64,000 bases of DNA from Zhongshania aliphaticivorans (lineage in GTDB: Bacteria > Pseudomonadota > Gammaproteobacteria > Pseudomonadales > Spongiibacteraceae): assembly GCF_902705875.1 (NCBI RefSeq), contig NZ_CACSIK010000002.1, positions 186,001 to 250,000 on the forward strand. The letters run 5' to 3'. A program made the translations under genes and the position numbers. The notes under the pieces were generated by a model. The model ran no database searches, was not told where the DNA came from, and saw only the letters and a program-made list of their open reading frames with translations. Below, in pieces: positions 2,622-46,369 of this stretch (position 1 is the first letter of the stretch; each line of letters begins with the position of its first letter).

Positions 2622-3959
2622 ATGGATGTAACAGTTTTTGGTATTGGTTATGTGGGCCTTGTGCAGGCGGCAGTTTTGGCCGAGGTTGGGCACGAGGTGG
2701 TTTGCGTAGACATTAATGCCGAGCGGGTCGAGAGCCTTAAGAAAGGCATTATTCCGATTTACGAGCCAGGCTTGACGCCATTGGTACAGCGCAATTACGA
2801 GGCTGGCCGCCTGCAATTTACTACCGATGCTGAATTTGGGGTAAAACACGGCAAAATCCAGTTTATTGCGGTGGGCACCCCGCCAGACGAAGACGGCTCT
2901 GCGGATTTGCAATATGTCTTGGCGGTGGCAAAAACCATCGCCACCTATATGGAAACTCCCAAGGTTGTCGTCGATAAGTCGACCGTGCCGGTAGGCACCG
3001 CAGACAAAGTCGCCGAGTGCATTGCCGCAATATTAAAAGCGCGCGGCGTGAGCTTAGATTTTGACGTGGTCTCTAACCCAGAATTCTTGAAAGAAGGCGC
3101 AGCGGTTGCAGACTGCCAACGCCCAGATCGTATAGTGATCGGCACCGACAGCGCCGTTGCAGAAAATAAAATGCGCGAGCTCTATGCCCCCTTTAATCGC
3201 AACCATGAAAAATTAATTGTCATGGACGTGCGCTCGGCAGAGCTGACCAAATACGCCGCCAACTGCATGCTGGCAACCAAAATTAGCTTTATGAATGAAA
3301 TGGCCAACCTGGCTGAAAAACTCGGCGCCGACATCGAAAAAGTGCGGCTGGGCATAGGCTCAGATCCGCGCATTGGCTACCACTTTATCTATCCCGGCTG
3401 CGGCTACGGCGGCTCCTGTTTTCCTAAAGACGTACAGGCATTGGTCAGAACGGCGGAAAAAGTCGGCTACACCCCAGAACTACTGCGCTCTGTCGAGGCG
3501 GTGAACGGTCGCCAAAAAGAGAAATTATTTAACCATCTTCAGTCTTATTTTAACGGCGACTTGGCTGGCAAGCGCATTGCCCTGTGGGGGCTGTCCTTTA
3601 AACCAAATACCGACGATATGCGCGACGCATCCAGCCGAGTACTCATGGAAAACCTCTGGGCTGCCGGCGCGATAGTACAGGCATACGACCCCGAAGCTAT
3701 GAACGAAACCCAGCGCATATACGGTACCCGATCAGACTTAAACCTAATGGGTACCAAAGAATCGGCCCTAAACGGCGCCGACGCCCTCGCGGTTTGCACT
3801 GAATGGAACGCTTTTAAAGCCCCGGACTTTGATCTAATAAAAGAAACGCTAAATCACGCCGTGATATTCGATGGCCGCAACTTATACGACCCCGCCATAC
3901 TAGAAGCACAAGGTATAGCCTACTACGGCATTGGCCGTGGGCGAAGTTATAACGATTGA
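2622..3959 (+). CDS. ugd: UDP-glucose 6-dehydrogenase, copy 1
   Basis: Oxidises UDP-glucose to UDP-glucuronate with two NAD+, supplying an acidic sugar precursor. The NAD-binding fold opens with [19 protein letters not shown]. The catalytic cysteine is Cys266 in [12 protein letters not shown]. The central [12 protein letters not shown] and the C-terminal [18 protein letters not shown] match the family, as does 445 residues. A second, very similar protein is encoded at 9107-10450. This copy uses many GC-ending codons while the flanking glycosyltransferase and flippase genes are AT-rich, so it has a different history from them. A TAGAAT box in a GCGTGYTAGAATT context lies about 40 bases upstream, and the same context precedes the second copy. 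Confidence 0.95.
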
Positions 3960-3972
3960 ATTAGGCTTAGAA

Positions 3973-5262
3973 ATGATGCTTTATCGATTTCGTGGAATGA
4001 TAGCTAATGTCGATACTCGTGAGTTATTGGTGCACGGGGGAATTGCATTCTTGGTCCGTATTCTTGGAGCATTAGCAGCATTTTCTGCGACCTTTTTTAT
4101 TGCACGACAGTTGGGGGCGGAGGAGTCGGGATACTATTTCCTTACTTATTCTATTGTGGCTGTGTTAGCAGCATTATCTCGAGGCGGGTTAGATAATACT
4201 GTAGTGAGATTTATTGCTGCTGACACTAAACAGGCACTAGCAGTTTACAATAAGTCGATTTTATTTGGATCAGCCTTAAGTGTTTCCATTGCTATCTTTT
4301 TTTATTTGTTAGCAGATTATCTCGCAAATAATGTGTTATCTAAACCTGCGTTAGCACCAGTATTTAGAAGTATATCTTTGGGTATTCCGGGCTTGGCGCT
4401 GTTAACACTTGGAGCAAATGCCTTACAAGGTTTACGCCTCGTCTCGTGGTCTATTTTCGTTTTAAATATTGCTATTAACTGTTGCTTGGTTGGGGGGGCT
4501 TATTATTTCAAAATTTTTCAGGCTCAACAATTAGCTCTTGTTTTTTCTGTCGGGAGTATATTAATAGCAATATCAGGCGGAGTCTTGTTTTATTGGAAGG
4601 TGCCAAGGTCAGAAAAATTAGGTATTTCTTGGAGTATAATATTTACTAGCTGCCTTCCGTTATGGTTGGTTGTTGTTATGGGGCAATTAGTTCAGTGGTC
4701 TGGTCAGTTTTTTGCGGGCGCTTACCTTAGTCCTGATTTGGTTGCACAGCTCGCGGTTGCGCAGCGTACAGCAATGCTAACGAGCTTTGTTCTTATAGCG
4801 ATTAATCTCGTTGTCGCTCCCCGATTTTCTGCTTTATATAAAACAGGTGCAATGGGGGAATTGTCTTCTTTAGCTAAAAAGTCGGTGGTACTTACTAGTG
4901 TAATAGCATTTCCTATTTTAATCGTAATGCTGTTTTTTCCAACGCTGTTTATGGGATTATTTGGTGTCGAATTTGAGCAAGGTGCGTCGTTATTACGGAT
5001 ACTCGTAATTGGGCAATTCGTTAACGTTATTACTGGTTCCGTTGGTTTTTTGTTAATTATGACGGGACATGAGCGGGATCTTCGAAGTATTACGTTGGTA
5101 TCGGGTACGACTGCGTTGATATTGGCGTGGGTTATGACCGCTAACTTTGGCGTGTTTGGTGCTGCGATTGGCACTGCGATTGCCGTAGCGACTCAGAATT
5201 TGCTCGCGGTCTATTTTGTGAAAAAACGCTTGGGTTTTAATACATTGGCAGTTTGGCGTTAA
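3973..5262 (+). CDS. Flippase / oligosaccharide translocase (MATE-like, Wzx-type)
   Basis: A multi-span membrane protein of the polysaccharide transporter superfamily. It probably flips a lipid-linked repeat unit to the periplasmic face. About twelve to fourteen hydrophobic segments span the whole length, starting with GIAFLVRILGALAAFSATFFIARQLG, the usual first helix of these proteins, with polar loops between. About 430 residues is typical. The frame is open back to 3931 inside ugd; I start at the ATG at 3973, but 3976 and 3997 are also possible because no ribosome site is strong. The gene is AT-rich like the sulfotransferase and GT4. The substrate is unknown; location suggests the product of this locus. 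Confidence 0.85.
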   Translation: MMLYRFRGMIANVDTRELLVHGGIAFLVRILGALAAFSATFFIARQLGAEESGYYFLTYSIVAVLAALSRGGLDNTVVRFIAADTKQALAVYNKSILFGSALSVSIAIFFYLLADYLANNVLSKPALAPVFRSISLGIPGLALLTLGANALQGLRLVSWSIFVLNIAINCCLVGGAYYFKIFQAQQLALVFSVGSILIAISGGVLFYWKVPRSEKLGISWSIIFTSCLPLWLVVVMGQLVQWSGQFFAGAYLSPDLVAQLAVAQRTAMLTSFVLIAINLVVAPRFSALYKTGAMGELSSLAKKSVVLTSVIAFPILIVMLFFPTLFMGLFGVEFEQGASLLRILVIGQFVNVITGSVGFLLIMTGHERDLRSITLVSGTTALILAWVMTANFGVFGAAIGTAIAVATQNLLAVYFVKKRLGFNTLAVWR

Positions 5263-7391: not shown

Positions 7392-8882
7392 ATGAAAATG
7401 GATTTTAGAACGGTAATTACGGCAACATTGATAACTTGGCTTTTCGTTTTTTCGGCGCAGTTGCGTGCTTCGCCTTGGATGGAGGTGGGGGACTCGCAGC
7501 TTCGACACCACATCACGGTGTTGGCTGATGCAGGTATTATTACGGTACCTATCAACACGTGGCCGTTGATGTGGTCTGGTGTTATTAATGATGTTAAGCG
7601 GGGTGAGCGTCGTCGTAATTTAACTGCGGGTCAGCAGCGTTCTCTTAGCTATGTTCGTAACGCATTTATACAACACACTAAGCCAAGCCGAACTTCAGTT
7701 TCATTGTCTGTCTCCGAGCGTCCCAATCAACTAAGAGGCTTTAATAGCGTGCCTCGTGAGGAGGCTGAATTAAGCCTTAGTTATGCCGCTATTCATGGCG
7801 GGACAGCGTATAAGTTACAAACGACGTATACCGGTGACCCTGCAGATGGCGAGAATGTTCGCTTTGACGGTAGTTATGCTGCGTTATTATTTGGTAACTG
7901 GGCTGCGGCGGCGGGCGCTATAGATCGCTGGTGGGGGCCAAGTCGTCAAAATGCCTTAGTATTGTCGAATAATGCTCGGCCTGTTCCCGGCATATTTTTG
8001 CAGCGTAATAATAGCCTTCCTTTTGAAAGCCCTTTATTAAGCTGGTTGGGACCATGGAATTTGGTGATGTTTGCAGGGCAGTTAGAGAGTGATCGTGAAA
8101 TAAGCCATGCAAAATTATTGGGCGCTAGGATGTCGTTTCGGCCTGCAAGCTGGTTAGAGTTGGGTGGGTCAAGAGCGGCGCAATGGGGTGGGGATGGTCG
8201 TCCAGAGGATTCTAGTAGTTTTGTCGATATGGTCACCGGTAACGATAACAACGGTGATAATGGTATAAACAGTAACAACGAACCTAGTAATCAGATTGCC
8301 GGCATAGATTGGCGTGCGACTGCTTCTGGTAATCAAATAAGCGTTGAGCATTACGGTGAGTTAGTTGGTGAGGATAATGCAGGCGTGATGCCGTCTCGCT
8401 TAATCGCCACGTTTGGCTTGGGTGCTCAAATGCCGATTGCTAGTAATGATGTTCGTGTTTATCTTGAGTTCACTGACACATTAACACGGCGTTTTTATAA
8501 GTCTGGGCAAATAAATTATGCATATGAGCATGGGACTTATAAATCTGGTTATCGTTACAAAGACCGGAATATGGCGGCAACAATTGATAATGACTCCAAA
8601 TCTACCAGTCTTGGTGTTGAGGTTTTCACTGAAACAGGTGCGACATGGCAAGTGGTGTTATCTAAACTGAACTTTAATAGTGACGGTACGAATAAGGCAA
8701 CTGGTGTAACACCATTGGCTTGGCGAACAGGTGATGGTTGGCAGGGTAAACTTAACTATCTTGAAAACTGGCGTGACTGGAGTTTCAGCTATGGACTTTA
8801 TTACCAGGGTGGTGACTTTGAGTTGCGCAATATGGGTAAAGACACTGCTGGCGCTGAATTTAGTGTTACTCTTGGGTTTTAA
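7392..8882 (+). CDS. Capsule-assembly Wzi-family outer-membrane protein
   Basis: A 496-residue outer-membrane beta-barrel related to Wzi, which tethers capsular polysaccharide to the cell surface. It has an N-terminal signal sequence (hydrophobic VITATLITWLFVFSAQL, cleavage likely after LRA), then SPWMEVGDSQLRHHITVLADAGII, the usual periplasmic start of the family. GAIDRWWGPSRQNALVLSNNARP and LSWLGPWNLVMFAGQLESDR are its conserved barrel segments. Alternating amphipathic strands continue to a C-terminal phenylalanine (SVTLGF), as expected for barrel insertion. It starts at 7392; 7398 is an alternative ATG. It links this locus to a surface-attached polysaccharide. Confidence 0.85.
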   Translation: MKMDFRTVITATLITWLFVFSAQLRASPWMEVGDSQLRHHITVLADAGIITVPINTWPLMWSGVINDVKRGERRRNLTAGQQRSLSYVRNAFIQHTKPSRTSVSLSVSERPNQLRGFNSVPREEAELSLSYAAIHGGTAYKLQTTYTGDPADGENVRFDGSYAALLFGNWAAAAGAIDRWWGPSRQNALVLSNNARPVPGIFLQRNNSLPFESPLLSWLGPWNLVMFAGQLESDREISHAKLLGARMSFRPASWLELGGSRAAQWGGDGRPEDSSSFVDMVTGNDNNGDNGINSNNEPSNQIAGIDWRATASGNQISVEHYGELVGEDNAGVMPSRLIATFGLGAQMPIASNDVRVYLEFTDTLTRRFYKSGQINYAYEHGTYKSGYRYKDRNMAATIDNDSKSTSLGVEVFTETGATWQVVLSKLNFNSDGTNKATGVTPLAWRTGDGWQGKLNYLENWRDWSFSYGLYYQGGDFELRNMGKDTAGAEFSVTLGF

Positions 8883-9106
8883 GCAGCTTGGTATTGATAA
8901 CCGCAATTATTGCCCTGTATGACAATATAAATCTATTTGATCGTTAGTTTTCTGGACGCCGTTATGCGGGGCTTCTATTTTCAATTGTTTTGTTTTAGTT
9001 CTATTAAACACTCTTTTTTACGATTTCTTCTTGGATTAAAGTCCCGGGCGGTCTTTTTAGCGTGCTAGAATTTAATATAGTTAATATTTTTATTTAGGGT
9101 AAGCGA

Positions 9107-10450
9107 ATGAAAGTCACGGTATTCGGTATTGGTTATGTCGGGTTGGTGCAGGCGGCGGTGCTTGCTGAAGTTGGGCATGAAGTGGTGTGTGTGGATGTTA
9201 ATGCCGAGCGTGTAGAAAACTTAAAGCAAGGTGACATTCCAATATATGAGCCTGGGTTAACGCCGTTGGTGCAGAGTAATTATGAGGCTGGCCGTTTGCA
9301 GTTTACTACGGATGCCGCTTTTGGTGTTAAACACGGTAAGGTCCAGTTTATTGCCGTGGGTACACCGCCAGATGAAGATGGATCTGCAGATTTACAATAT
9401 GTGTTAGCCGTGGCGAAGACCGTTGCGACGTATATGGAGTCGGCAAAAATTATTGTCGATAAATCGACTGTGCCTGTGGGCACGGCAGATAAAGTGGCGG
9501 CGTGTGTGGCTGAGGTGTTGGCTGAGCGCGGTGTGGATGTCGGTTTTGATGTAGTGTCTAATCCTGAGTTTTTAAAGGAGGGGGCGGCGGTTGCAGATTG
9601 TCAGCGGCCAGATCGAATTGTAATTGGAACCGATAATCCTGCTGTCGAAAATACCATGCGGGAGTTGTATGCGCCCTTTAACCGCAACCATGAAAAATTA
9701 ATTGTGATGGATGTACGTTCTGCTGAACTGACCAAGTACGCAGCTAATTGTATGCTGGCGACTAAAATTAGTTTTATGAATGAGATTTCTAATTTGGCTG
9801 AAAAGTTGGGTGCGGATATCGAAAAAGTACGGCAGGGTATTGGTTCAGACCCGCGTATTGGTTATCACTTTATTTATCCGGGCTGTGGCTACGGCGGGTC
9901 TTGTTTCCCCAAAGATGTGCAGGCCTTGGTACGTACGGCTGAAAAAGTAGGGTATACGCCGGAATTACTGAAGTCAGTTGAGGCGGTCAATAGTCGTCAA
10001 AAAGAAAAATTGTTTACCCATGTTGAGGCATATTTTAAGGGTGATCTACAAGGTAAACGAATTGCGCTGTGGGGCTTGTCGTTTAAACCGAACACCGATG
10101 ATATGCGTGATGCGTCTAGTCGTGTGCTTATGGAAAAATTGTGGGCAGCGGGTGCGTCGGTACAAGCTTATGACCCCGAGGCCATGAATGAAACTCAGCG
10201 TATATATGGCACGCGGCCAGATTTGAGTTTAATGGGAACAAAAGAGTCGGCCTTAAATGGCGCGGATGCTTTGGTGGTATGTACAGAATGGAATGCGTTT
10301 AAAGCGCCGGATTTTGAGTTAATAAAAGAAGCACTTAGTCACCCAGTTATATTTGATGGACGCAATTTGTATGACCCTGTTTTATTAGAGGAACAAGGCA
10401 TTGCTTATTACGGTATTGGGCGTGGACGGAGTGTGCAGAGCTTTTCATAA
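9107..10450 (+). CDS. ugd: UDP-glucose 6-dehydrogenase, copy 2
   Basis: Same reaction and motifs as the protein at 2622-3959: [19 protein letters not shown] at the start, catalytic Cys266 in [30 protein letters not shown] near residue 325. By eye about nine residues in ten match copy 1, yet synonymous codons differ widely; this copy prefers T/A-ending and G-ending codons. So the duplication is old, or one copy came from a close relative. Like copy 1 it is preceded by a TAGAAT box in a GCGTGCTAGAATT context (9066-9071), 35 bases before the start. Having two copies suggests separate regulation or a large demand for UDP-glucuronate. Confidence 0.95.
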
Positions 10451-42774: not shown

Positions 42775-43382
42775 GAGACTGCTTCTCCAGATGTTGTGCG
42801 GTATTCACCACAAAGTGGATACCAACGATAATCATTTTGGTTACATTCTATCTTGTTAAGCTAATTATTGCGTTCAGGCGTGAGCATAAGCTGTTAATAA
42901 TGATATTGAACACCGCCCTGCGGTTTTGACATTTATGCACGCGATAAGTGCAGTGGGTGGTGAGAAATGTTTCACCTTGCAGATTACACCGCCGTGAGTA
43001 CATTTCCCCATAAGTTGACCTCACTTTGAACCATAAAATGGCCGAATTAAGGCTCTTGGGCGATGGAAATCCAAGCTCTCTGTAGTGGTCAACTAAAACT
43101 GGCCAACCCGTTCACGCCAGCGACGAGCTTGTTCACTAGAAGCGGGATCACTAATTCCGTAGATCGAAATCTAAGTTGTTGATTTCTTGAGGTATGGGTT
43201 TATGATCAGGAGAAGGGATTTAAGAAAAAATAGAGGTGACGCGTCTTGCTAACGCCGATAGTCAATTCCACGAAATACAATCAAGTGCATGATATCGCTA
43301 GGGTTTTTGGCGCCATTCTGAATTCGGGCCTGGAGATAGAGAGCCAAGGTGTTATAAGGCACCAGTCTTCATAATAATGCTG
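42775..43382. other. 607-bp non-coding stretch upstream of the integron cassettes
   Basis: No gene I can support. A small hairpin (TGCAC-gcgataa-GTGCA) lies near 42935-42951. Sequence around 43005-43110 (CCCCATAAGTTGACCTC, later GTGGTCAACTAAAACTGGCC) resembles ends of insertion sequences. The leftward strand keeps a short open stretch (43093-43170) encoding SDPASSEQARRWRERVGQF, like the start of an IS66-type accessory protein. I read this as a decayed insertion sequence with low certainty. The boundary site GTTATAT at 43382-43388 marks the start of cassette 1. Confidence 0.4.
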
Positions 43383-43415
43383 TTATATTTTTAGTTATAG
43401 CTCACAGGAGTCCCA

Positions 43416-44135
43416 TTGGCTATTACAAATAAATCAATAAAACTACTATGGTCAAATGCGGCAGGAATATGTTCCTTTTCAGGTTGCGCTGAAAAGCTTT
43501 CTGTAGAGCAGGCCGCAGGAGTTGCACCTTATACGCTTGGAGAAATGGCTCATATAAAAGGAAATAAGCCAGGTTCAAATAGATATGACCAATCACAATC
43601 AAGCACTGAACGTGATAGTTATGAGAACTTAATACTATTATGTCCTACTCACCACACATTGATTGATAAAGAAGAGAATGAAGCAGAATACCCTGTAGAT
43701 CTTCTCCTTGAAATGAAAAATCAACACGAGAGCTTTATTTCAAATAGACTTGGTGTAGAAAAATTTGAAAATACGGATCAGTTAAAAGATAAAATCTCAA
43801 TTTATATGTCTGAAAATCATCAAGCATGGAACCAATATGGCCCACTGTCTGATAATGCCCGAAGAAACCCTAATAACGATCAAGTACACGCTCTATGGAC
43901 CTCTGCTCGACTTTCCACAATCATTCCAAATAACCGTGAAGTGGTAAAAATATTACAGGAAAATAGAGAGTTATTTTCTAAGCTTGAACAACGAATTATT
44001 AGTAAATTTATAATGCATGTAGAGAGCTATGAAGCATGGGTCAATGATGATATTCCGTATCAAGCAGTTTTACGTTTTCCTACAGATTTTGAAGAATTAG
44101 TTTTTGGAGAAGAAGATGCCAGCACACAACGATAA
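43416..44135 (+). CDS. HNH endonuclease domain protein
   Basis: A 239-residue protein with an N-terminal HNH nuclease domain. Cys19 and Cys24 (CSFSGC), Cys76 and a His of the THH pair form a zinc knuckle. His46 (MAHIKG), Asn71 (YENLILLCPTHH) and His80 are the H-N-H catalytic residues, so it looks active. Residues about 115-239 match no family I know and may sense or bind a target. The start is TTG at 43416 with AGGAG five bases upstream. The C-terminal end overlaps the next gene by 20 bp. First gene of cassette 1. HNH proteins of this layout occur in phage-defence systems, which is the role I would test first; it is inference. Confidence 0.8.
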   Translation: MAITNKSIKLLWSNAAGICSFSGCAEKLSVEQAAGVAPYTLGEMAHIKGNKPGSNRYDQSQSSTERDSYENLILLCPTHHTLIDKEENEAEYPVDLLLEMKNQHESFISNRLGVEKFENTDQLKDKISIYMSENHQAWNQYGPLSDNARRNPNNDQVHALWTSARLSTIIPNNREVVKILQENRELFSKLEQRIISKFIMHVESYEAWVNDDIPYQAVLRFPTDFEELVFGEEDASTQR

Positions 44136-44526
44136 TTTTCCATGGATGAGCTATTACGGAAACTATAATTTTTTTGAACAACGTATGCGTGAGCATTCAA
44201 AAGTAAACACAATTGAGCGTGTTAACCCTAGTGTTTATAGCCTTGAACTGACTGATGGTCGCAGATTAAAAGTATTCATTTGTGAGTGCTACTCCTTTGA
44301 TACTGCAGAATATGTAGAGTCATGTGAAAACTATGGACCATTACAAGCTGTAGTTATCAGTTCTAATTGGTGTGGTTATTCACTAGATGTTAAGCGTAAT
44401 TGTATGTCTGATCAGGTTGGTGTGTATGATACCGCTGGATTCATGGCCGCTATAAACAAAAGGGAGTATTGGACTTACCTTACAGAGTATGAACGTGAAC
44501 GATTTCAAGAAAATGGTTGGCTTTAA
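44116..44526 (+). CDS. Unknown protein, second gene of the cassette 1 module
   Basis: A 136-residue protein I cannot place. The core LELTDGRRLKVFICECYSFD, then GPLQAVVISSNWCGYSLDVKR and QVGVYDTAGFMAAIN, follows an alternating beta/alpha pattern. It faintly resembles the second half of Mrr-like restriction-nuclease folds, where a strand ending in Ser/Asn-Trp is followed by a helix and a short strand, but the D...ExK catalytic residues are not evident. The ATG at 44116 is 20 bp inside the HNH gene and follows GGAGAAGAAG, so translation is coupled. That tight coupling suggests it acts with the HNH protein. Confidence 0.65.
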   Translation: MPAHNDNFPWMSYYGNYNFFEQRMREHSKVNTIERVNPSVYSLELTDGRRLKVFICECYSFDTAEYVESCENYGPLQAVVISSNWCGYSLDVKRNCMSDQVGVYDTAGFMAAINKREYWTYLTEYERERFQENGWL

Positions 44527-44531
44527 AATTG

Positions 44532-44867
44532 ATGATATCTGTATATGGTTATGGTTCATATTTTAAAGGAAGCAGTCAATATAAAGACATAGACATCTTA
44601 ATTACTCATATTTCAACTGACTATAACTCTTGCTTAGAAGTCATCGCATTGAAAAAGTCTATAGTCAATGAAATAGAAGGAGCTGATGTCACCATCCTTT
44701 CTTGTGTCGCTGAATCAGAATTTAACTTTATCCAGCAATCTAGAGCAATATTACTTTCTGAATTTTTGCAAAATACGAACAATCGGATTTTAACAGAGTT
44801 ATTTGATAAAGTTCGTGGGTATAAAAATATAACAAGGCATTTAAACGGAACTAAAACAGTGGGTTAG
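44532..44867 (+). CDS. Minimal nucleotidyltransferase (polymerase-beta-like fold)
   Basis: A 111-residue protein. YGYGSYFKGSSQYKDIDILI holds the nucleotidyltransferase signature GS-x9-D-x-D (Gly8-Ser9, Asp19, Asp21) that binds metal and NTP. A third acidic residue may be in ADVTIL. It has no partner domain and is close to the minimal MNT size known from toxin-antitoxin systems. The start is either ATG 44532 or TTG 44517, the latter overlapping the previous gene. The last 41 bases, from AAC at 44831 on, lie inside the attC hairpin, so the C-terminus is constrained by the recombination site. Third gene of the cassette 1 module. Confidence 0.65.
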   Translation: MISVYGYGSYFKGSSQYKDIDILITHISTDYNSCLEVIALKKSIVNEIEGADVTILSCVAESEFNFIQQSRAILLSEFLQNTNNRILTELFDKVRGYKNITRHLNGTKTVG

Positions 44868-44926
44868 GTTTCGCTTCGCTACACATTATAACCCACTATT
44901 TTAGTCCGCTTAATGCGGCGTTAACA
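44827..44926 (+). mobile_element. attC recombination site of cassette 1
   Basis: An imperfect palindrome of about 100 bp. Outer R boxes AAC (44831-44833) and GTT (44920-44922) pair. They are followed by an unpaired spacer (AAG opposite GGC), and then L boxes GCATTTAAACGGA and TCCGCTTAATGC with one extrahelical base. A further stem, CTAAAACAGTGGGTTA/TAACCCACTATTTTAG, surrounds the terminal loop. This R-spacer-L layout with an extrahelical base is the hallmark of integron attC sites. It overlaps the 3' end of the nucleotidyltransferase gene. Confidence 0.82.
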
Positions 44927-44964
44927 GTACGTAAAGCACTAGTTCACCGCTCCTTTTCGGTCTG

Positions 44965-44994
44965 TTGACTGTAACTACAATGTAATTATAATTA
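44965..44994 (+). promoter_or_regulatory. Promoter and palindromic operator of brnTA
   Basis: TTGACT (44965-44970), 16-bp spacer, TATAAT (44987-44992). The perfect palindrome TAATTATAATTA (44983-44994) covers the -10 and is a likely site for the BrnA ribbon-helix-helix repressor. The predicted start of transcription coincides with the ATG at 44999, so the mRNA may be leaderless. Confidence 0.7.
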
Positions 44995-44998
44995 AGGG

Positions 44999-45292
44999 AT
45001 GAATCATCTGACCTTCGAATGGGATTCGGCCAAGGATGCCTCCAACCTTATGAAACATGGGGTATCTTTTAGCGAGGCCAAAACGGTATTCACTGATGAA
45101 TTTGCCCGTTTAATTGCCGACCCAGACCATTCTGAGGATGAAGATCGATTCCTGCTTCTTGGAACAAGTATCAATTCTCGTCTATTAGTCGTTTGTCATT
45201 GCATCAGGGAAGGTGAAGTAATTCGGGTTATCTCAGCTCGAAAAGCGGATAAACGAGAACGTAAAGTATATGAAGGTTATCGAAATGCGTGA
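44999..45292 (+). CDS. brnT: BrnT family toxin (ribonuclease)
   Basis: A 97-residue toxin of the BrnT family, RelE-like ribonucleases that arrest growth by cutting RNA. FEWDSAKDASNLMKHGVSFSEAKTVF is the family N-terminus, DRFLLLGTSINSRLLVVCH the central strands, and IRVISARKADKRERKVYEGY the C-terminal Arg/Lys-rich motif with the catalytic residues. There is no ribosome site at usual spacing, and the promoter -10 ends seven bases before the ATG, pointing to leaderless translation. It overlaps brnA by eight bases. Confidence 0.9.
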   Translation: MNHLTFEWDSAKDASNLMKHGVSFSEAKTVFTDEFARLIADPDHSEDEDRFLLLGTSINSRLLVVCHCIREGEVIRVISARKADKRERKVYEGYRNA

Positions 45293-45494
45293 TCACTACG
45301 ATTTTTCAAAGTCCGTTAAAAATCCTTATGCTAAGAAACTTAAGAAGCAAGTCACTATTCGACTTGATGAAGACACAATTGAGTATTTTAAAAAGCTCGC
45401 CGACGACAAAGATATGCCTTACCAAAGTCTAATTAATCTTTATCTTAGGGACTGCGCGCAGTCGCATAAGGATTTAAAACTTGAGTGGAAGTAA
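45285..45494 (+). CDS. brnA: BrnA antitoxin (ribbon-helix-helix)
   Basis: A 69-residue antitoxin that binds and neutralises BrnT and represses the operon. KKQVTIRLDEDTIEYFKKLADDKDMPYQSLINLYLRDC is the ribbon-helix-helix domain in the C-terminal half. The N-terminal SKSVKNPYAKKLK is the toxin-contact segment typical of the family. I start at ATG 45285, which overlaps the brnT stop and has GAAGG eight bases upstream; ATG 45270 is also in frame. Confidence 0.88.
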   Translation: MRDHYDFSKSVKNPYAKKLKKQVTIRLDEDTIEYFKKLADDKDMPYQSLINLYLRDCAQSHKDLKLEWK

Positions 45495-45498
45495 AAAC

Positions 45499-45548
45499 TG
45501 TTAACAAATCAAAGCAGTCGATGCGCGCTGCTGTTTGAGGCGTTGAGG
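45499..45548 (+). mobile_element. attC recombination site of cassette 2
   Basis: A short attC. R boxes AAC (45503-45505) and GTT (45542-45544), L arms TCAAAGCAG and CTGCTGTTTGA with an extrahelical G, unpaired spacers between R and L, and a small loop TCGATGCGCG. The R'' heptamer TGTTAAC matches the cassette's left junction exactly. Confidence 0.75.
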
Positions 45549-45724
45549 CTTTAGAATTACTCCGCTCAGTGTCCGCTAACGATGGATTGTTTCCTTCAAT
45601 TTACCTTGGCGATTGCCCGCTAATTTACCTATGCCGTCGTTTATGGCGCACGATAAAAGCACCTTACTATAAGTTGGCCACGGACCATTTTACCGGTGGC
45701 CAAAGTGGACATCTTGAGGGTGAA
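45543..45724. other. Right flank of the integron cassettes
   Basis: A non-coding flank of 182 bp after the last core site. I see no further attC; a third cassette would need CCTCAAC as its R'' box and none is present. CTATAAGTTGGCCACGGACC near 45669 resembles the ATAAGTTGACC sequence on the left flank (43009), so both flanks may hold fragments of one insertion sequence. Confidence 0.35.
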
Positions 45725-46369
45725 TCAACACGTGTTGCGATTGAAATACACTATATAGCTTCCGGTGTCAGGGCTTTTTCGATAAGCAGCTTGAGCGGCT
45801 ACTGCGCTCAAGTAGTTAATATTGTCCCAGAGTAACAGTGTTTGTAGTGGTGTTTCACGCCATAAGGAATAACGTCCCTGATATTGCCGGTCAATCGTGA
45901 TCATACTGAGTCCCGCTGCTTGCTTGGCGAATTGTATTGGTTTTTGCAGGATGATATTTCGACCTTCTACCCTGACCGCCTCATTAATTTCGACGGTATC
46001 TTCATGCAGTAGTGCGCAGATGTCTCCCGCGTGGGGCGGGGTTTGTCTGCCGGCTGGCAGGCGCAGGTGTTGTGTTCCCTTTAATTGACAGCGCCAATAT
46101 GACGGTTGCTGTATAAGCGGAATAGACTGGAATTGGACATTGCTGAGTGCATAGCTAATACACAGCGCTACGTTGGCAGTAGCTTGTACAATGTTGCCAT
46201 TGGACAATTTTACTTGGCCGCTTAGCAGCTGACAGTCGCAGCGGCCACAATTGCCATTTCGACAGCTGCGAGTCACAGCTAGTCCCGCGGCAAGACATTG
46301 CTCAAGGAGTGTTTCGTCCTGATAAAGGGATAAGCTAAACGGCGGTGTTATGGTGCTGAGAGTGAGCAC
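45725..46369 (-). CDS. 2Fe-2S ferredoxin-domain protein
   Basis: A 214-residue protein. The N-terminal plant-type ferredoxin domain (about residues 1-85) has the cluster ligands in CRNGNCGRCDCQL and the distal Cys in VALCISY. The remaining 125 residues contain a beta segment like the start of a flavin-reductase FAD domain (LKGTQHLRLPAGRQTPPHAGDICALL), but no complete FAD/NAD-binding module follows. Partner and role are unknown. It lies two bases after rdgB and ends the long leftward operon. In Pseudomonas hemW normally follows rdgB; here this gene and then the integron cassettes occupy that place. Confidence 0.75.
   Translation of the reverse strand: MLTLSTITPPFSLSLYQDETLLEQCLAAGLAVTRSCRNGNCGRCDCQLLSGQVKLSNGNIVQATANVALCISYALSNVQFQSIPLIQQPSYWRCQLKGTQHLRLPAGRQTPPHAGDICALLHEDTVEINEAVRVEGRNIILQKPIQFAKQAAGLSMITIDRQYQGRYSLWRETPLQTLLLWDNINYLSAVAAQAAYRKSPDTGSYIVYFNRNTC

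Follow-up and report, generated by a model that had tools for sequence, protein, structure and literature searches.

The subject of this analysis is an integron cassette array without an integrase gene, found in a 64,000-nucleotide stretch of the Zhongshania aliphaticivorans genome (assembly GCF_902705875.1, contig NZ_CACSIK010000002.1, positions 186,001 to 250,000 of the forward strand). The whole of this stretch is called the window, and positions given without a contig refer to it. The array is flanked by a TIGR03545 gene (276 bits against a cut-off of 173) and an rdgB-like gene, the position given to it in an earlier reading made from the sequence alone. It consists of two cassettes behind a copy of the recombination site attI, and it is enclosed by end segments that recur elsewhere in the genome. 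The features of this unit are the following.

43001..43074, + strand: left end of the unit, degenerate, with 3 mismatches to the end pattern GATTCACCCAYAAGWTGNC; 43007-43074 is 88-90% identical to the left ends at C3 and C1
43079..43112, no strand assigned: scar that looks like an IS3-family terminus; in the units E068, E099 and E100 the corresponding stretch is ~155 bp longer
43101..43387, + strand: attI copy, crossover G|TT at 43382|43383, assigned by homology to other copies in the genome
43179..43206, + strand: promoter-like TTGATT-16-TATGAT, a putative Pc directed at the cassettes (9/12 positions)
43416..44135, + strand: cassette 1, gene 1, HNH protein of 239 amino acids (aa) with a TTG start (HNH_2, 7.2e-07; PADLOC HNH effector models, best 8.2e-32)
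44116..44526, + strand: cassette 1, gene 2, 136-aa protein of unassigned family (130 relatives)
44532..44867, + strand: cassette 1, gene 3, small nucleotidyltransferase-like protein (GSYF...DID) with its stop inside attC1 (DNA_pol_B_palm 0.0014, below the cut-off)
44827..44926, + strand: attC1, from a home-made attC scan, the junction match and DNA matches in other genera
44965..44992, + strand: promoter-like TTGACT-16-TATAAT before brnT (11/12; the total of such matches is not above background)
44999..45292, + strand: cassette 2, BrnT toxin of a type II toxin-antitoxin pair (BrnT_toxin, 1e-28)
45270..45494, + strand: cassette 2, BrnA-type antitoxin (BrnA_antitoxin, 1.5e-10)
45499..45548, + strand: attC2, from the home-made scan and the junction match; its R' core GTTGAGG runs on into the right end segment
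45543..45731, + strand: right end segment, recurring at five other units and closing with the left-end motif in inverted form (on the minus strand from 45726, with 1 mismatch)

The cassettes, the attI copy and the insertion site

The two cassettes in the window are genuine. The sequence-only reading had proposed them from the agreement between the two ends of each, and this agreement is borne out: the R'' box of attC1, ATATAAC at 44827, is the reverse complement of the junction GTTATAT at 43382 in all seven bases, and that of attC2, TGTTAAC at 45499, is likewise the reverse complement of GTTAACA at 44920. Each hairpin also has the extrahelical base with which it had been credited, one in attC1 (7 of 8 arm pairs) and one in attC2 (8 of 8). 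The scan for attC sites, with rules taken from general knowledge of such sites, was run over both strands of the window and gave 15 matches, among which attC2 ranks second and attC1 third; it also recovers all three attC sites of the canonical integron in the same genome, described below. The first rank is a hairpin at 7725-7786, which is probably a chance attC-like structure. No Rfam family reaches its gathering score within the window. It is important to point out that attC1 recurs at 97.0, 93.8 and 87.4% DNA identity 3' of the unrelated genes DUF2971, DUF3644 and GIY-YIG (two Pseudoalteromonas records and one Catenovulum record), as is expected of a mobile recombination site.

The sequence-only reading had also advised a search of the rest of the genome for intI and attC sites, and an intact integron integrase gene, intI, does lie on another contig (G000:C1:1869418-1870359; TIGR02249, 418 bits, cut-off 265). 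Its attI serves an array of cassettes encoding 154-, 196- and 208-aa proteins, each with an attC that matches its own left junction (3/3). A truncated second integron integrase is found at G000:C1:997165-997698 (243-aa frame, 196 bits). When 42960-45740 was compared with its own genome, 22 matches were obtained, self included. The stretch 43101-43387 is present at six further places at 84-86% identity, at two at 70-71%, and as two short weaker pieces. One of the 84-86% copies directly precedes the intact integrase gene, and it is by homology to the attI of that integron that the left flank of the window cassettes is itself identified as attI. The aligned copies are similar up to a common G|TT point and diverge beyond it, and 43382|43383 is therefore the attI crossover and the exact start of cassette 1.

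The promoter-like motif in the window attI, taken as a lone match, is not above background; the same hexamers with the same spacing are found in 22 of 25 aligned attI copies. Among 22 aligned copies without an intact intI, conservation is highest at -53 to -14 before the aligned end (0.89-0.91), compared to 0.68-0.73 across the preceding 80 bases and 0.81 at the last 13 positions.

A comparison of this locus among relatives, also recommended in the earlier reading, was made with 17 genomes of the same genus, none of the same species and mostly drafts. The flanks are close together in 11 of them, with 92-270 bp between TIGR03545 and Fer2 as against 2.95 kb in the window, which means that the unit is an insertion. 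In four of the other six Fer2 gave no match, and the distance between TIGR03545 and rdgB is 165-556 bp; in the remaining two the stretch read differs.

Related units and dispersed attI copies

Five other units, E068, E099, E100, E101 and E102, contain parts of 45532-45731 at 82-88% identity; they also carry the recurring left end and, together with the window unit, make six. In five of the six (E068 being the exception) the common right stretch starts at the last attC core, GTTGAG. The outermost bases of the units form an inverted repeat, about TGTYGATTCACCCATAAGTTG, and the 17-base end pattern occurs, with at most 2 mismatches, 12 times in this genome compared to 0 for a reversed control. Both ends are also present in a 244-base element in G005 that has no cargo at all. 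Elsewhere in G005 (L209, 5629-11382), similar ends flank a 1507-aa protein in place of an attI array, and in L195 (reverse complement, ~470-380) the start of a right segment runs into the final 35 bases of an attI and then into another cassette, apparently two units joined by a deletion.

The site of E068 is uninterrupted, with contiguous flanks, in three relatives, and that of E102 likewise in three. An uninterrupted site for E101 was not found among the relatives, while the search gave matches on one side only for E099 and split matches for E100. The integrase-less E099 (L099) and an intI-bearing element (G016:C37, L219) occupy the same intergenic place, a possible insertion hotspot. By eye, no transposition genes were recognised in the open reading frame lists of the six units.

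The sequence-only reading had seen no integrase and had taken the array for either a cluster lacking one or a fragment of a larger integron. The first point holds, since intI is indeed absent inside the unit. Of the parts of a complete integron, the unit has attI (by homology) and attC-bounded cassettes, and it has no intI beside attI. The array is, however, not a bare attC cluster: an attI of its own, with a promoter-like motif, precedes the cassettes, the ends recur elsewhere, and five further units of this kind exist.

We now consider the genus as a whole. Copies of the attI that belongs to the intact integron were sought in 18 Zhongshania and 3 sister-genus genomes; 50 were found in 13 of the former and none in the latter, many of them matching only over the ~50 bases closest to the crossover. 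An integrase match lies within ~320 bases of five copies (that in G005 includes a stop), and the other 45 have no such match nearby. In G002 and G008, which have four attI copies apiece, the integrase search gave nothing at E <= 1e-30.

The junctions of 47 of the 50 copies were tested, 10 from this genome and 17 + 20 from relatives. For 24 of them, the R'' box of a downstream attC matches the seven crossover bases, as compared to 0.1 on average in shifted control windows of the same width. Leaving out the five copies with an integrase or a fragment of one, the match is found in 21 of 42. Two attI copies from two species, L287 and L294, have first cassettes that start very similarly, with the same 24 bases after the crossover.

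Proposed loading in trans and its alternatives

We consider it likely that the window holds a satellite cassette array, that is, an integrase-less unit with a spare attI that would be loaded by IntI in trans and copied with the aid of a helper. The unit reads, in order, left end, attI copy with its promoter-like motif, candidate HNH defence cassette, BrnT/BrnA cassette and right end. The helper would act on the ends and so copy the units around, IntI made elsewhere would recombine the spare attI with attC sites, and the attI promoter would express the first cassette.

The action in trans is suggested by units that are alike on the left and differ in cargo. E068 and E099 have an integrase-less left end in common (82% over 221 bp), and the unit L187 of another species has the same left end (78% over 149 bp), while the cassettes of all three differ. 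This means that intI was absent before these units separated and that cassettes were gained or lost later, which points to IntI acting in trans. Exchange by IntI in trans is thus the most likely origin of the different cassettes at these units, and a single integrase may be able to supply many places in the genome with genes for toxin-antitoxin pairs and phage defence. The reading as a whole is also favoured by two solitary attI copies, L103 and L099, which agree with the intI-linked attI in 99/100 and 95/100 of the bases nearest the crossover. On balance we also lean, by a small degree, towards a distributed integron in Zhongshania, in which many solitary attI docks, promoter-bearing and in part located on miniature elements, would be kept functional, with one IntI acting in trans and with defence and toxin-antitoxin cassettes exchangeable across the chromosome. 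If so, many clusters of attC sites lacking an integron-integrase (CALINs) that are called degraded in other genomes could be such docks, as attI is not looked for.

A number of observations weigh against loading in trans and copying by a helper. The enrichment of the end pattern is less clear across the genus, with 72 occurrences compared to 24 for the reversed control in 18 genomes. Only in the window unit and E068 can both end repeats be recognised with no more than 3 mismatches; in each of the other four units at least one end is degenerate or truncated (one end clear and the other degenerate or truncated, or nothing but degenerate ends on one side), and E102 lacks a recognisable attI. No target-site duplication is evident at E068 and E102, and searches of plasmids and viral contigs and around IstB found no transposase for the unit ends. 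In the junction test, 23 of the 47 attI copies gave no match, 8 of the 47 having no attC-like match downstream at all. The window attI has the most changed crossover region among the seven closest copies in this genome, being identical to the intI-linked attI in 44 of the 50 and 85 of the 100 bases nearest the crossover. Given this, the IS3-like scar and the degenerate left repeat, the window copy looks partly decayed and may be inactive. The case as a whole is built on sequence comparison, and the recombination itself is predicted.

The alternative that fares best, although we judge it unlikely, is that the units are ordinary degraded integrons, in which case intact elements with intI, attI and array would have moved, each copy would have lost its intI separately, and cassettes would have been loaded in cis before that loss. 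Elements that bear intI and have a related left end do exist (G016:C37 and G001:C7), integrase fragments lie near attI in L190 and L290, and the truncated intI at C1:997165 fits the same picture. However, the integrase-less left end common to E068, E099 and L187, with unlike cassettes behind it, places the loss before the cassette changes, and 45 of the 50 attI copies have no integrase match nearby.

Another option considered was that homologous recombination at attI and the right segment exchanges arrays between the copies, with no part played by IntI. The attI copies are similar enough for this, as nearest the crossover L103 is identical to the intI-linked attI in 99/100 bases, a conversion-like near identity. 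However, the first junctions lie exactly at G|TT in 24 of the 47 copies, with different cassettes, and a swap of this kind would explain the reshuffling of cassettes and not the first arrival of each. We therefore regard it as improbable. An entry of the cassettes into an ordinary chromosomal secondary site (attG) would suit a core intergenic place without intI, but is very improbable because the 287 bp to the left of the cassettes are a copy of the attI of this genome and not native intergenic DNA. Finally, chance hairpins with chance 7-mers are hardly credible: the hairpin at 7725-7786 does score as high in the same scan, but attC1 recurs behind unrelated genes in other genera and the junction matches number 24 of 47 against 0.1.

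Several candidates for the origin of the ends were tried. IS21 is not supported as the source: IstB was searched for in 18 genomes, and none of 10 loci with a strong match, several of them cut by contig ends, shows such ends around IstB; in L272 an end-like repeat lies near IstB but outside it. Plasmids gave no match to a 263-base query of the cargo-free element or to a right-segment query, and viral contigs gave none to the exact end pattern. A tyrosine recombinase and a KfrA-like gene near the right end of L207 were considered as the helper and are not claimed as such, no left end being found beyond them. The motif GTTGAGGCTGTAGA, present at many right junctions, was first taken as a part of attI and turned out in L195 and L212 to be the end of a transposase-bearing element. 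This element (DDE_Tnp_1_6/DUF772; L195 ~2830-4685, L212 ~8560-10340) lies within an attC core with GTT on both sides; it is presumably IS1182-like and looks like an insertion sequence that targets attC. The right segment may be descended from an element of this type.

Cassette cargo and comparison with known systems

The HNH protein of cassette 1 is related to HNH effectors of the CBASS (cyclic-oligonucleotide-based antiphage signalling system) type, with solved HNH/SAVED relatives such as 9om4 and 7rwm. Among 120 listed relatives of the 136-aa protein none has a Pfam domain, and its structure model has a mean predicted local distance difference test (pLDDT) score of 89.6. The GSYF...DID motif of the third protein is kept in 7 of 7 aligned proteins. 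The order of the three genes is kept in all nine loci of other genomes (Zhongshania, a Bathymodiolus symbiont, Shewanella, Vibrio, Citrobacter, Ca. Electrothrix, Exilibacterium, Legionella and Ca. Kurthia), the third gene being truncated by the contig end in Citrobacter, and the set is also found on an Acinetobacter plasmid. A clear attC lies 3' of it in five of the nine (L069, L071, L072, L074 and L075) and a weak one in L077; in three of these five (L069, L074 and L075) R'' equals the left junction. The three-gene set (window 43416-44867; L069-L077, L048) is a candidate defence or toxin-antitoxin system of distant bacteria, and the first window cassette identifies this little-known HNH system as a true mobile cassette.

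In five of the six units a protein matches a PADLOC defence model, although not every cassette protein was scanned. The cargo of E099 includes a TIR domain of the CAP12/PycTIR type, that of E100 AbiTii, that of E101 GmrSD_N/NsnA, and that of E102 PDC-M22A and PDC-M22B; the single protein scanned in E068 has no match. Small gene pairs in E099 and E068 resemble toxin-antitoxin modules by eye. In the canonical array, 0 of the 3 cassette proteins match a PADLOC defence model. A PADLOC match is a resemblance and not a function.

In the usual picture, an integron is one platform with one attI. Here attI is multiplied and dispersed, so that many places in the chromosome could each serve to try out a cassette behind a promoter of its own, with the integrase absent there. 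This gives a testable alternative to the view of integrase-less arrays as mere decay products, and a route for the spread of defence genes. A literature search, which was not exhaustive, gave no description of integrase-less attI docks multiplied across a genus, of solitary attI arrays or of Zhongshania integrons. Cassettes, CALINs and miniature elements are known parts, and miniature elements carrying integron material are described in PMC9024848 and PMC13367494.

The closest comparisons are as follows. With CALINs, the window array shares two attC sites with cassettes and no intI nearby, and by our own scanner it qualifies as one (at least two attC sites, no integrase nearby). The arrays here differ in keeping attI and recurring ends, and we therefore rejected a bare CALIN as the full description of the window array. 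The units may also resemble miniature inverted-repeat transposable elements (MITEs): the ends of the six units are related, and the 244-base element has both ends and no cargo, but both repeats are clear only in the window unit and E068.

The integron mobilization unit (IMU) and other Tn3-derived inverted-repeat miniature elements (TIMEs) are also non-autonomous, with cassette-borne genes moved by a helper in trans (PMC13367494). The IMU is bounded by two Tn3-derived miniature copies, whereas here attI lies inside the unit and is multiplied, the contrast drawn being one of layout.

Mobile integrons on transposons, of the class 1 or Tn402 type, have an inverted repeat near the 3' side of intI, followed by attI and cassettes, as do the elements in G001:C7 and G016:C37. 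The units described here are without intI, and no genes for transposition were recognised in them by eye. Sedentary chromosomal integrons, finally, likewise hold chromosomal cassettes of unknown, toxin-antitoxin and defence-like function, but they have one long array at one attI, whereas here many short arrays are found at many attI copies.
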